Part shown: one piece after another, positions 57,234 through 61,616 of the stretch
Position numbering within the stretch: position 1 is the first letter of the stretch
How the letters are laid out: every line of letters starts with the position of its first letter
NCBI RefSeq assembly: GCF_018326265.1
Contig: NZ_AP023360.1
Coordinates: 1,789,501-1,853,500 of the forward strand
DNA length: 64,000 nucleotides
Direction of reading: 5' to 3'
From: Catellatospora sp. IY07-71
GTDB lineage: Bacteria; Actinomycetota; Actinomycetes; Mycobacteriales; Micromonosporaceae
Made by a program: the position numbers and the translations under genes
The notes under the pieces: model-generated
What the model was told of the DNA's origin: nothing
Seen by the model: the letters and a program-made list of their open reading frames with translations, nothing else
Database searches by the model: none

Positions 57234-57520
57234 GCCGAAGCGACCGGGGCAGTGCCACCGCCGAGCTGGCGGTGGCACTGCCCGCCGTGGTGCTGCTGCT
57301 GGTCACCGGCATCGGTGCGGTCACCGCGGTGACCGTGAAGCTCGGCTGCGTGGCCGCCGCCCGTGATGCCGCACTGGCCGCGGCCCGTGGCGAGGCGGTG
57401 GCGGCCGGGGCGGACGTGTCGTCGGGCGGGGACACCGTGACGGCGACGGTGCGGCGGTCCGTCCGGGTCACCGTGCTCACCTGCACCGCGACCGCCGCCC
57501 GGGAACCCGGTGCGCCGTGA
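57230..57520 (+). CDS. TadE-like minor pilin
   Basis: This 96-aa protein begins RSDRGSATAELAVALPAVVLLL. The Gly-Ser junction with Glu at +5 is a prepilin-peptidase type site, followed by one hydrophobic helix. It matches TadE-like minor pilins. GTG 57230 overlaps the flp stop, and the stop overlaps the next gene. Confidence 0.83.
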   Translation: MSRSDRGSATAELAVALPAVVLLLVTGIGAVTAVTVKLGCVAAARDAALAAARGEAVAAGADVSSGGDTVTATVRRSVRVTVLTCTATAAREPGAP

Positions 57521-57963
57521 GCTCCCTGTACGCGATCGGCGTCGGGCTGGTGTTCGTCGTCGCGGGCACCGTGGTCGCGGCCGAGGGCGCGCACCTGGTC
57601 GCCCGGGAGCAGGCGCGGACCGCGGCCGATCTCGGCGCGCTGGCGGGCGCGGCGTACGCCGTCCAGGGCGTGGACGTGGCCTGCGCGCGGGCCGGGGAAC
57701 TCGTGCGGGCCAACGGCGCGATGGTGACGGACTGCCGGCTCGACGGCCTCGACCTGCTCCTTTCCGTAACCGCCGTGACCGGGGCGGGCGCCGCCGAGGC
57801 CACCGCCCGCGCCGGCCCGATCCGGATCGCCGCGGTGGCCGAGGCAGCCGCTCCCCGCGCCGAAGCTCCGCTCCCCGCGCCGAAGCTCCGGTATCCGCGC
57901 CAGAGCTCCGCTTTGGCTCCGCGCCGGGCAGATCGCGATTTCGTGTCAAGAAGTGAGGTGTGA
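57517..57963 (+). CDS. TadG/Rv3654c-like pilus-associated protein with repeat-eroded end
   Basis: This 148-aa protein has an N-terminal hydrophobic helix (about 1-24) and AREQARTAADLGALAGAAYAV (about 30-50), typical of TadE/TadG-like proteins that neighbour actinobacterial tad helicases. Residues 111-148 are low-complexity and coded by 20-bp tandem repeats (57851-57910) and then by the 64-nt repeat copy B. The family end should be near residue 110, so the C-terminus appears extended by repeat DNA. Confidence 0.75.
   Translation: MSSLYAIGVGLVFVVAGTVVAAEGAHLVAREQARTAADLGALAGAAYAVQGVDVACARAGELVRANGAMVTDCRLDGLDLLLSVTAVTGAGAAEATARAGPIRIAAVAEAAAPRAEAPLPAPKLRYPRQSSALAPRRADRDFVSRSEV
57851..57910. 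repeat. 20-bp tandem repeat within the TadG-like gene
   Basis: CTCCCCGCGCCGAAGCTCCG occurs twice exactly (57851-57870, 57871-57890), and a third degenerate copy (GTATCCGCGCCAGAGCTCCG) follows at 57891-57910. Confidence 0.9.
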
Positions 57964-57993
57964 CCGCAGATCATGACACCAACTACTGATCAA
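57930..57993. repeat. 64-nt palindromic repeat, copy B
   Basis: Same length as copies A and C, with about 49 of 64 bases identical to copy A by eye. The pairing is weaker than in A because the 3' arm has diverged. It covers the last 34 bases of the TadG-like gene and the first 21 bases of the DUF559 gene. Confidence 0.75.
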
Positions 57994-58878
57994 GCCGGGC
58001 TGGACGTGCTCGCCGATGACAGGGGTGGGCTCTTCACCAGGGAGGATGCTCATCGACACGGGTTCACAAACGATCAGATCCGGCGGCGCCTGCGCCGGGG
58101 CGATTGGCGGGTCGTCATCGGCCCGGTGCTGACCCGCGCCGGGCGGCAGGTCACTCCGCTGCTGCGGGACCGGGCGGTGCTGCTGGCCGTGCCCGACGCG
58201 GTCCTCAGCGGGCCGTCGGCGGCCCGGCGATACGGGCTGGAGGTGCCCGACCTGCGCACCTGCGTGACGGTCGGACCGGGGCGGCAGGTCCGGCACGCCG
58301 GCCTGCGGGTACACCGCGAGATCCTGGCCTCCGCCGACGTCTGCCTCGTCGACGGGATGCTGTTCACCGGCCCGGCGCAGACGGTGATCGACTGCGTACG
58401 TGAGCTGCGGCCCGACGACGCGGACCTGGTGCTCGACCGCGCGATCCAGCGGCGGCTCATCACGTTCGAGGAGTTCGTCGAGCGGGTGCGGGGCCGGGCC
58501 GGGCGACACGGGGCCGGGCCGCTGGTCCGGGCGGCGGCCCGGCACGCTCACGGTGCGCGGTCCGCCGCGGAACGGCTGCTGGTGCAGGGCCTGCGCCAGG
58601 GCCGGATCACCGGATGGCGGAGCAACCTGCCAGTGCACGACGAGGATGGGCTGATCGGCGCGGTCGACTTCGGGTTCGTGGAGATCCGGCTGGCGATCGA
58701 GATCGACGGGCAGGCCTGGCACAGCGCCGCCGACCGTTTCCAGCACGACCGCACCCGGCAGAATCGCCTGGTCCGGGCGGGCTGGACGGTGCTCCGCTTC
58801 ACCTGGCAGGACCTCACCCGCAACATGCCCGGCGTCCTCCATGAGATCGAAACCGTCCGCCGCCAGCTGGCGGGCTGA
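57973..58878 (+). CDS. AbiEi-like wHTH plus DUF559 nuclease-like protein
   Basis: This 301-aa protein has an N-terminal winged-helix of the AbiEi-antitoxin type (about 15-65, GGLFTREDAHRHGFTNDQIRRRL). Its C-terminal DUF559/Vsr-like domain (about 195-300) is related to short PD-(D/E)xK endonucleases. Candidate metal ligands are D in GAVDFGFVE, then the E-I-D of AIEIDGQAWH, with E in SAAERLL earlier. No AbiEii partner is present. Its ATG lies inside the 64-nt repeat copy B, and copy C starts 3 bp after its stop. No Shine-Dalgarno is seen, so the start is uncertain. Its cellular role is unknown. Confidence 0.75.
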   Translation: MTPTTDQAGLDVLADDRGGLFTREDAHRHGFTNDQIRRRLRRGDWRVVIGPVLTRAGRQVTPLLRDRAVLLAVPDAVLSGPSAARRYGLEVPDLRTCVTVGPGRQVRHAGLRVHREILASADVCLVDGMLFTGPAQTVIDCVRELRPDDADLVLDRAIQRRLITFEEFVERVRGRAGRHGAGPLVRAAARHAHGARSAAERLLVQGLRQGRITGWRSNLPVHDEDGLIGAVDFGFVEIRLAIEIDGQAWHSAADRFQHDRTRQNRLVRAGWTVLRFTWQDLTRNMPGVLHEIETVRRQLAG

Positions 58879-58881
58879 CAG

Positions 58882-58945
58882 AGATCGCTGTCTCGTGTCA
58901 CAACCTATGGTCCAGCCACAGGTTCCGACACGAGACGGCGATCTT
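58882..58945. repeat. 64-nt palindromic repeat, copy C
   Basis: Begins AGATCGCTGTCTCGTGTC and ends CGACACGAGACGGCGATCTT. About 46 of 64 bases match copy A. The outer arms pair almost fully (CTCGTGTC with GACACGAG). It lies between the DUF559 gene and the convergent helicase gene. Confidence 0.8.
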
Positions 58946-58976
58946 GGCGCCCCGCGCCCCGCGCCGCGCCCGGCGG

Positions 58977-61370
58977 TCAGTGGGGGAGGTGGTGGAGGAT
59001 GGTGTCGAGGACGGTCACGGCGCCGCGCTTGTCCAGGGGATTGTTGCCGTTGCCGCACTTGGGGGACTGGACGCAGCTGGGGCAGCCGCGCTCGCACCCG
59101 CACTCGGCGACGGCGGTGCGCGTCGCGCCCAGCCACTGCGCGGCCATCCCGTACGCCCGCTCGGCGAAACCGGCCCCGCCGGGGTGCCCGTCGTACACGA
59201 AGATGGTCGGCGCGTCGGTGTCGGCGTGGCAGGCGGTGGACAGGCCGCCGATGTCCCACCGGTCGCAGCTGGCCACCAGCGGGAGCAGCCCGATCGCGGC
59301 GTGCTCGGCGGCGTGCAGCGAGCCGGGCAGGTCCTCGACCCCGGCCACGGCGGACTCGGCGATCGTGGTCCACACCGCGACCGTGCGCAGGGTGCGGCTG
59401 GGCAGCTCCAGCGGCCAGGTGCCGAGCACCTCGCCGCTGTCCATGCGGCGGCGCTGGAACGACACCACCTGGCTGGTCACCTCGACCTCGCCGAGGAACA
59501 GCCCGATCGGCCCGGCGTCGACGTAGGAGCGCACCTCCAGCACGGTGAGCGAGGTGGTGTCCCGGGCGTGCGTGGAGTACGGCGGGTTGTCCGCCTCGAC
59601 CAGCGCGACCGCGTCGGCGAGGTCGAGCGACTGCACGACGTACGTGCGGCCCTGGTGGGTGTACACGGCACCGGGGTGCAGGTGGTGGTGGGCCGCGCCG
59701 GGGTCGGCGGTGCCGATGAGCCGCCCGGTCGACGCCTCGATGACGGCGACGGGCGGGCCGCCGGTGCCGCGCAGGTCGATGTCGGGGCGCTGCGGATGGG
59801 TCCAGTACCAGCCGGTGGGGCGGCGGCGCAGCGCGCCCGCGGCGACGAGTTCGTCGAGCAGTGCCGCGTCGGCGCCGAACAGGGGCAGGTCGGCCTCGGT
59901 GAGCGGCTGCTCGGCGGCGGCGGTGCACAGGTGCGGGGCGAGTACGTACGGGTTGGCCGGGTCGAACACGGTGGCCTCGACGGGGGTGCCGAACAGCGCC
60001 TGCGGGTGGTGCACCAGGTAGGTGTCCAGCGGGTCGTCGCGGGCGACGAGCACGCACAGCCCGTCGCGCCCGGCCCGCCCGGCCCGCCCGGCACGCTGCC
60101 AGACCGCGGCGCGGGTGCCGGGGTAGCCCGCCAGCAGCACGGCGTCCAGGCCGGTCACGTCGATGCCCAGTTCGAGCGCGTTGGTGGTGGCCAGGCCGGT
60201 CAGGCTGCCGTCGGTGAGCTGCTGCTCCAGGCTGCGGCGCTCCTCGCGCAGGTAGCCGGCGCGGTACGCGGCGACCTGGCGGCCCAGGCCCGGCTGCGCC
60301 TCTTCGAGGGCGGCGCGCGCGTGCACGGCCACGACCTCGGCGCCGCGCCGGGAGGGTACGAAGGCGAGGGTGCGTACGCCCTGCACGACCGCGTCGGCCA
60401 GCAGGTCGGCGGTCTCCCGCAGCGCGGACCGGCGCACCGGGGCGGCGTCGCCGTTCAGATCCGCCCCGGGCAGCTCCGGCGGCTCCCACAGCGCGAAGGT
60501 CATCGAGCCGCGCGGCGCACCGTCCTCGGTGACGGCCCGCACCGGTCGCCCGACGAGCTTGCTCGCGCTGCCCGCCGGATCCCCGGACGTCGCCGACGCC
60601 AGCAGGAACACCGGCCCGCGCCGCGCTGCGCCGCCCCGGCCGATCCCGGTGCCACCGGACCTGGCCGTGCCGCCTGACCGGGCAACGGACTGGTCAGCGG
60701 TCTCCGCGTTAAGAAGGTGCCCTTCCTCTACGGATTCCGTTAAGAAGGTGCCCTTCCTTTCTGGTTCTCCGGTGAGGCGGCGGAGGCGGCGGAGGATGTG
60801 GGCGACGTGGGCGCCGAAGACGCCGCGGTAGCTGTGGGACTCGTCGACGATGACGTAGCGCAGGTTGCGCAGCACCCCGGACCAGCGCTGGTGCTGCGGG
60901 AGCAGGCTGTGGTGCAGCAGGTCGGGGTTGGTGAGGATGACGTTGGCGTGCTGGCGGATCCAGTCGCGCTCCTCGCGGCCGGTGTCGCCGTCGCAGACCG
61001 CGGCGCGCAGGCCGGGCAGGTTCAGCCCGGTCAGCGAGCGGTGCTGGTCGGCGGCGAGCGCCTTGGTGGGGGCGAGGTAGAGGACCCGGGCGCGGGGCTC
61101 GGTGAGCACGGCGGACAGGGCGGGCAGCTGGTAGGCGAGGGACTTGCCGGAGCCGGTGCCGGTCGAGATGACGACATCGTGGCCGGCGTACGCCAGCTCG
61201 GCCGCCTCGGCCTGGTGGGCCCAGGGCGCGGTGATGCCGCAGCCGCGCAGCGCCTCGACCAGGTCCGGCGGGATCCAGGCGGGCCACTCGGCGGCGCGCC
61301 CGGCCCGCGCGGGCAGCAGCTCGACGTGCGTGACCTGGTCGCGCTTGAGCCAGTAGGGCAGCAGGTCCAC
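58977..61370 (-). CDS. MrfA-like DExH helicase with DUF1998 domain
   Basis: This 797-aa superfamily 2 helicase resembles mycobacterial Rv3649 and Bacillus MrfA (YprA), a mitomycin-damage repair helicase. The Walker A is STGTGSGKS (69-77) and the DExH box is D176-ESH. Motif III SAT is at 259-261 and the second RecA domain follows. The C-terminal DUF1998 has a four-Cys site (ECGCERGCPSC and KCGNG) that probably binds zinc. Residues about 204-251 are an insertion of low complexity between motifs II and III, including two copies of a 20-bp repeat. GTG 61370 lies 6 nt after CAGAGT; no Shine-Dalgarno. Upstream codons to 61499 lack family match. Confidence 0.88.
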   Translation of the reverse strand: MDLLPYWLKRDQVTHVELLPARAGRAAEWPAWIPPDLVEALRGCGITAPWAHQAEAAELAYAGHDVVISTGTGSGKSLAYQLPALSAVLTEPRARVLYLAPTKALAADQHRSLTGLNLPGLRAAVCDGDTGREERDWIRQHANVILTNPDLLHHSLLPQHQRWSGVLRNLRYVIVDESHSYRGVFGAHVAHILRRLRRLTGEPERKGTFLTESVEEGHLLNAETADQSVARSGGTARSGGTGIGRGGAARRGPVFLLASATSGDPAGSASKLVGRPVRAVTEDGAPRGSMTFALWEPPELPGADLNGDAAPVRRSALRETADLLADAVVQGVRTLAFVPSRRGAEVVAVHARAALEEAQPGLGRQVAAYRAGYLREERRSLEQQLTDGSLTGLATTNALELGIDVTGLDAVLLAGYPGTRAAVWQRAGRAGRAGRDGLCVLVARDDPLDTYLVHHPQALFGTPVEATVFDPANPYVLAPHLCTAAAEQPLTEADLPLFGADAALLDELVAAGALRRRPTGWYWTHPQRPDIDLRGTGGPPVAVIEASTGRLIGTADPGAAHHHLHPGAVYTHQGRTYVVQSLDLADAVALVEADNPPYSTHARDTTSLTVLEVRSYVDAGPIGLFLGEVEVTSQVVSFQRRRMDSGEVLGTWPLELPSRTLRTVAVWTTIAESAVAGVEDLPGSLHAAEHAAIGLLPLVASCDRWDIGGLSTACHADTDAPTIFVYDGHPGGAGFAERAYGMAAQWLGATRTAVAECGCERGCPSCVQSPKCGNGNNPLDKRGAVTVLDTILHHLPH
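60708..60758. repeat. Two copies of a 20-bp repeat inside the helicase gene
   Basis: GTTAAGAAGGTGCCCTTCCT lies at 60708-60727 and 60739-60758, 31 bp apart. Because 31 is not a multiple of three, the two copies are read in different frames (as RKGTFLT and EEGHLLN), and both stay open. Confidence 0.92.
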
Positions 61371-61616
61371 CCCAGCACTCTGCCACCCGGCGGGCCGCGG
61401 CGGCCAGCCCGCATCGGCCGCCGTCGGGCGACGTCCGGCGCAGTCTCGGGCGGCGCCCGGCCCACGGTCGGCGCCCGTTGCCGAGATACGACAGCCCACG
61501 TCGGCGACAAGGGCAAAGGGCGCGTAGCCCGGAAACCCGACCAGTGGTTAGATGCATGGGGACCGGTGCACGGAGAGATTCCGGGCAGTGACCGGACGTC
61601 GCAGAGGGAGGTGCCG

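Follow-up and report, generated by a model that had tools for sequence, protein, structure and literature searches.

The question raised by this locus is whether a nuclease gene that lies tightly between two members of a dispersed palindromic repeat family encodes the protein that reads those repeats. The gene is located in a 64-kb window (G000:C1:1789501-1853500) on an 8.6-Mb contig of the Catellatospora genome under study (G000), that of a soil bacterium. To our knowledge, it has not been established which proteins read most of the palindromes dispersed in bacterial genomes or what DUF559 nucleases do, and a limited search of the open literature found no description of such repeats or of DUF559 proteins in connection with AbiEi or palindromes. 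Here, one gene has candidate sites of its own at its start and after its stop, and similar dyads lie beside some of its homologs in other genera. The genus holds hundreds of copies and also includes species that naturally do not carry the gene, which allows a direct comparison.

The gene (57973..58878 of the window, + strand; ATG at 57973, stop codon at 58876-58878) encodes a 301-aa protein. The N-terminal region (residues about 5-186) is AbiEi-like, with a PADLOC AbiEi match at 3.2e-19; Pfam AbiEi_4 reached 19.2 bits, under its cut-off of 25. Residues about 187-295 form a DUF559, Vsr-like nuclease domain (Pfam DUF559 2.4e-11, MTES_1575 2.9e-11). Profile searches found the PDB relatives 3hrl (1.5e-6) and 3r3p (0.0019), the latter of which we take to be I-Bth0305I. 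D232, E243, D245, H250, and D259 are invariant in 11 aligned homologs and may correspond to the residues of the EDxHD motif. The closest named relative of the gene is from Catellatospora bangladeshensis (90% identity), and structure prediction of the protein from two sequences was poor (pLDDT 44.5). Apparently in place of a toxin partner, the adjoining genes are a TadG-like gene upstream (57517..57963, + strand; Pfam Tad 7.9e-05) and, downstream, a gene that we assume from its sequence motifs to be helicase-like (58977..61499, - strand).

The preliminary description had placed three copies of a 64-nt palindrome in the window: A at 2679-2742, B at 57930-57993 over the start codon of the gene, and C at 58882-58945, starting 3 bp past its stop. 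These positions were confirmed as full-length matches, at 78.4, 56.8, and 78.1 bits, to a covariance model built on 25 aligned members of the family, among which is A and outside of which are B and C. The palindromic plan is real and marks a shared dyad family, but the length is 63 nt, since matches on the two strands are offset by one base, and the right arm of B is degenerate, reading GACACCA...TGATCA where the family has GACACGA...GATCT. The central stretch of B, aagtgaggtgtgaccgcagatcatgac, is identical in five species. B, the proposed operator, overlaps the end of the TadG-like gene, whose open frame enters its left half in G000, and the start of the nuclease gene, whose ATG falls within it. 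C lies between the convergent ends of the DUF559 and helicase-like genes. A is a dispersed member, and its ortholog in the related genome G051 differs at one base.

That these copies belong to a family dispersed in the genome, as had been proposed, was borne out. The pattern TCGTGTC-N27-GACACGA occurs 214 times exactly and 269 times with at most one mismatch in the 8.6-Mb genome, and the same pattern read backwards occurs 0 times. A strict pattern gave 36 rows on the two strands, from which 25 copies were aligned after six without a locus and five second-strand duplicates were omitted. A looser pattern applied to the window alone, with a spacer one base too long so that real copies were missed, gave 7 matches versus 5.3 expected. 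A 63-column matrix was seeded with the aligned copies apart from one that contains a gap (24 of 25) and, after a single round of refinement, was scanned over 2.06 Mb of G000, including the window and four stretches (0.2 Mb) picked for their arrays. It found 121 elements at all thresholds from 18 to 30 bits and 122 at 14-16 bits, and 0 in the reversed-sequence control. With the count unchanged from 18 to 30 bits, the family has no tail of decayed copies. Outside full elements, a half-site scan gave 12 hits, compared with 9 control hits; scores above 19 were reached by 7 of the former and by none of the latter. Among these seven, three are halves split by an insertion sequence, two are half-elements adjoining a full element, and one is an element that has lost a single base. 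Around G000:C1 278009 and 448641, half-elements lie some 41 nt from a full element (~4 helical turns by hand count) and in direct orientation to it.

The family is concentrated in one genus. Among 300 genomes of the bacterial family, the exact pattern is present in nine, of which seven are Catellatospora with 214, 220, 36, 14, 12, 12, and 10 copies; the other four of the 11 Catellatospora genomes have 0, and the two single exact matches outside the genus look like chance. With the covariance model, the family was found in all 11 genus genomes (48-150 two-strand hits, with scoring limited to 150 candidates in each genome). The outer pattern W-GATCG-N51-CGATC-W, counted in 150 genomes, matches 61-258 times in the 11 genus genomes, 37-79 times in the genus g39, and 5-49 times elsewhere, the last of which was taken as pattern background. 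Within g39, the counts were 63 (G039), 79 (G061), 74 (G080), and 37 (G094), and three of these genomes exceed every genome of the remaining non-Catellatospora genera; perhaps g39 holds a second amplified family. Two other palindromes were noted in G000. A diverged dyad with the core CCGGTC...GACCGG lies at G000:C1 978641 (L131:18641) directly 5' of the start codon of a presumably macro-domain-like gene and is possibly a related operator. The palindrome GCCGCAGTTTCGGGGAAA...TTTCCCCGAAACTGCGGC at G000:C1 544082 (L110:4082) lies in a convergent gap and is apparently of a different type.

A home-made gene caller was used to place the 121 elements: the flanking genes are convergent for 62, codirectional for 51, and divergent for 6, while 2 overlap called genes, so 119 are intergenic. 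The codirectional elements are closer to the 3' end of the upstream gene in 39 of 51 cases. Since 62 of the 119 intergenic elements occupy convergent gaps, which make up 16% of intergenic bases, C is typical of the family and alone unremarkable. B is one of the two gene-overlapping elements. The element at G000:C1 8433797 sits within a called 1257-bp gene, possibly a wrong gene call. Because the caller placed the start of the nuclease gene too far downstream, in-frame start codons were searched for inside the elements, and B was the only one of the 121 to contain an in-frame ATG of the adjoining gene. In seven others, a GTG or TTG codon in frame with the gene precedes its called start. That B is atypical and lies over the start of a DNA-binding-type nuclease gene counts in favor of B as an operator.

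The symmetry of the elements differs between their outer and inner parts. The outer 18-bp arms have 14.98 of 18 complementary pairs versus 14.42 at random (z 5.2). The inner 27 nt have 7.28 of 13 complementary pairs versus 7.44 with the halves dealt at random, so the halves are independent, with some avoidance of pairing at positions 24, 27, and 30 (z -2.2, -2.0, and -2.9, uncorrected for 31 tests). In 92 typed copies, the inner halves were again independent, and base preferences on the left and right were alike. In other species, the core differs and remains matched between the two arms in most of 18 elements, a set in which at least 11 of 18 arm pairs were demanded and the loci were chosen by the G000 model. 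Inner halves without excess complementarity are expected of two independently read half-sites rather than of a hairpin. The covariation of the arms is also expected of a hairpin and counts against the explanation that we prefer below.

Neighboring elements are regularly spaced. Of 22 neighboring pairs less than 600 bp apart, 2 are at 94, 14 at 104-106, 5 at 113-115, and 1 at 279 bp, and thus 21 fall near 9, 10, and 11 helical turns (8 from the stretches chosen for arrays and 13 from elsewhere). When placement in the same intergenic gaps was simulated 2000 times, the phased distances were taken by 0.76 pairs on average and by 4 at most. The spacers between neighbors are mutually unrelated by eye. 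Compared in direct orientation, the neighboring elements themselves resemble each other more than random pairs do (18.4 versus 15.2 of 27, z 5.4), so some arrays, or part of the 105-bp spacing, may be due to tandem duplication. Helical-turn spacing between otherwise unlike neighbors suggests a protein reading DNA on one face, and independent half-sites together with helical phasing point to a dimer that reads double-stranded DNA. The elements look like two-fold-symmetric double-stranded DNA sites.

These findings bear on the idea that the elements act as RNA, either as bidirectional terminators or as hairpins at mRNA ends. Such a role would fit the placement at 3' ends, seen in 39 of 51 codirectional and in the 62 convergent elements, and the arm complementarity above chance. 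We consider it improbable. The missing covariation of the inner 27 nt lowered this reading, as does the pairing avoidance there, and neither spacing by helical turns nor a copy over a start codon, as with B, speaks for a transcript end. A T-run after the arms was not seen by eye, and no known RNA family matched the 64-kb window at the Rfam gathering threshold.

The stability of the elements was examined by comparing G000 with G051 (95.6% identity over 212 kb). Nine of 10 G000 elements have an ortholog in this stretch, and the site of the tenth holds unrelated sequence in G051 with no target duplication visible. The nine pairs differ at 37 of 243 positions of the inner 27 nt and at 15 of 324 positions of the arms. 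The suggestion that the protein moves the repeats found no sign in its favor, as the elements are mostly fixed in place between species at this identity. The comparison with REP repeats and their RAYT transposase also failed as a description of this pair and was rejected: the single Y1_Tnp match in G000 lies 4 Mb away, and G051 has none despite 220 exact copies there. If the elements were instead selfish, like MITEs or REPs, and were spread by some transposase, this would explain why hundreds of copies are limited to one genus in differing numbers, and why G051 lacks one of the 10 elements in the stretch that was compared. We regard it as very unlikely, since 9 of 10 elements are common to both genomes, the absent site lacks a target duplication, spacing is regular, partial copies are few (12 half-site hits, 7 above the control's top, several explained), and G051 maintains its copies without a Y1 transposase, the only transposase family searched for.

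Next, the gene and its flanking elements were followed across the genus, using the helicase-like gene, which has orthologs in all 11 genomes, as the anchor. Orthologs of the nuclease gene were found at the same locus in 8 of 11 genomes. Both B and C are present at five of these; in G118, two dyads follow the gene and none was seen at its start, and G016 and G133 have weak or remnant dyads. Empty sites in relatives, raised as a question in the preliminary description, were found in the other three genomes (G125, G109, and G071), where the TadG and helicase ends meet directly and 3 of 3 have no gene, element, or half-element. Therefore, loss of the gene by recombination between B and C is unsupported. 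Loss is likelier than gain of the gene, since the empty genomes are interspersed with gene-bearing ones on the helicase tree, which has two open forks and a midpoint root. The block from B through C (window 57750-58950) is 81-93% identical to G051 per 150 bp (gene dS 0.37, dN 0.053), and its flanks are mostly 91-99% identical apart from one stretch near 57.0 kb at 66-78%. The higher divergence of the block may mean that the whole cassette was exchanged as a unit.

The proposed link between gene and repeats thus holds at the locus, where the presence and absence of the two together count in favor of the AbiEi-DUF559 protein as reader, but the sites persist in the three gene-less species, which is the strongest evidence against this protein reading the dispersed sites. 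With 150 candidates scored in each, the gene-less genomes gave 92, 146, and 147 model hits on both strands, and in two of the three the best scores resemble those of gene-bearing genomes. The gene as the cause of all copies was rejected, as the family is retained without it. Counts of W-GATCG-N51-CGATC-W were 250, 258, 217, 205, 165, 126, 102, and 74 in the gene-bearing genomes and 75, 70, and 61 in the gene-less ones, and part of the latter matches may be background. Gene-bearing genomes thus tend to have higher counts (Mann-Whitney p=0.024, 8 versus 3 genomes, kinship ignored). The three gene-less genomes belong to a single clade, however, and G133 has no more than 74 matches despite carrying the gene.

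Other DUF559 genes were also inspected. G000 has nine DUF559-type loci (8 by protein search and one more by Pfam), and no element lies within 1.5 kb of any of the other 8. Among the 30 matches listed for the genus, 2 of 22 non-orthologous loci hold an element (L075 and L090). Clustering of the repeats near DUF559 genes, which a partnership had been thought to produce, was not seen, and a general association was rejected on these counts. Outside the genus, 13 homologs were found at E up to 1e-30 from 121 genomes. Exactly 63-bp W-GATCG...CGATC-W dyads lie within 220 bp of the matched stretch in three of these, which belong to three other genera: two at L254, the one homolog with both flanks occupied, one at L256, and one at L264. 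At L254 and L256, the first TGA of the downstream dyad is the stop codon. L257 has a 62-nt dyad, hand-trimmed from a 68-nt palindrome, and the other 9 of 13, including all five of the genus g44, have no 62-63-bp GATC-ended dyad. Scored with a core-free family matrix, L256 (41.6) and L264 (39.4) far exceed the maximum of -0.4 in 273 controls; L254, at -2.4, is not set apart from them. The chance expectation in the 48.6 kb examined is ~0.2 dyad matches by a hand estimate from per-genome counts, and these stretches had been looked over before the dyad test was framed. One of the dyads lies beside a homolog in G002, which has only 12 pattern matches and no visible expanded family. The 0 of 8 other DUF559-type genes and the 9 of 13 homologs without dyads count against the explanation that we prefer.

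Another possible explanation is that the elements are sites for a general host protein, such as gyrase or a nucleoid- or chromosome-organizing protein, and that the DUF559 gene merely gained one over its start and ends in a convergent gap, a place in which elements are common. E. coli BIMEs bind gyrase, which provides a precedent, and the preference for convergent gaps, the persistence of elements without the gene, and the other DUF559 genes unlinked to elements would all be explained. It is a serious possibility, only slightly less likely than the explanation that we prefer. Against it, B is atypical among the 121 elements, the gene and both elements are lost together, and dyads occur beside homologs in three more genera, including the one in G002.

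The explanation that we prefer, tentatively and as one that may well be right without yet being probable, is that the AbiEi-type protein reads the dyads and B is its operator. Each 63-bp element would be a pair of inverted ~31-bp half-sites read by a dimer, and the gene between B and C would most likely supply the reader, the AbiEi-DUF559 protein, with its AbiEi-like part binding the dyad. B, over the gene's own start codon, would mediate negative autoregulation like that of AbiEi antitoxins. In Catellatospora, the same site would have been multiplied across the chromosome, giving the copies dispersed in 3' and convergent intergenic regions, from an ancestral state of one or two sites beside the gene. 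We also infer that the nuclease domain may act at the sites. AbiEi binds its own promoter at a pair of 23-bp inverted repeats separated by 3 bp, and the repeats that Rv2827c binds in its promoter are 23 bp long with 13 bp between them (PMC7319586). The related nuclease I-Bth0305I dimerizes on nearly 60 bp (PMC3943268). A dyad at the operator position of an AbiEi-nuclease fusion fits with these precedents. A broader proposal, which we find rather unlikely, is a nuclease-repeat partnership without a transposase, in which an AbiEi-Vsr/DUF559 protein had its own 63-bp operator multiplied to hundreds of helically phased gene-end sites. A toxin-antitoxin-type regulator might in this way have turned into a chromosome-wide site reader that marks, nicks, or organizes intergenic DNA.

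Several known systems resemble parts of this one. Like AbiEi antitoxins (PMC7319586), the protein has an AbiEi-like region and inverted repeats at its own start or promoter, and the Rv2827c operator span of 23+13+23 bp is close to the 63-bp dyad. Unlike them, it is fused to a nuclease, has TadG-like and helicase-like neighbors, and has a site repeated hundreds of times in the genome. I-Bth0305I, related to it by profile, has a very long dimer-bound target (PMC3943268). In contrast to EDxHD homing endonucleases, the gene lies between sites and not within a split target, and empty sites hold neither element nor half-element. MITEs differ from the family in that its absent site shows no duplication and its partial copies are few.

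The closest likeness is to REP and BIME sequences, which also occur in more than 100 copies, are palindromic, extragenic, at 3' ends or in convergent gaps, and clustered, and serve as targets of insertion sequences (PMC3733652; PMC1525189; PMC2817692). REPs measure 20-40 bp and bear a GTAG or CGTC tag on one of their ends, whereas the present elements are 63 bp with symmetric W-GATCG ends; the independent dyad halves, the helical-turn spacing, and the lack of a RAYT also set them apart. A RAYT flanked by two REPs (PMC2817692) is matched here by a DNA-acting gene bracketed by members of a dispersed family with which it is co-present, and in both cases copy number loosely tracks the gene. However, the present protein is an AbiEi-DUF559 (Vsr-like) protein and not a Y1 tyrosine transposase, its repeats outlast the gene, and mobility was not seen. 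The elements are themselves a target: a 1522-bp IS4-family element has six copies in G000 (L267-L278; G000:C1 112394, 3419982, 3751961, 4583288, 7451380, and 7859925), and all six lie at one position inside the dyad. This resembles the REP-specific insertion sequences of PMC1525189 and is set apart from them by the IS4 family, the 63-bp dyad as target, and a 10-bp duplication, GTGTCNNNNN, read from the flanks by eye.
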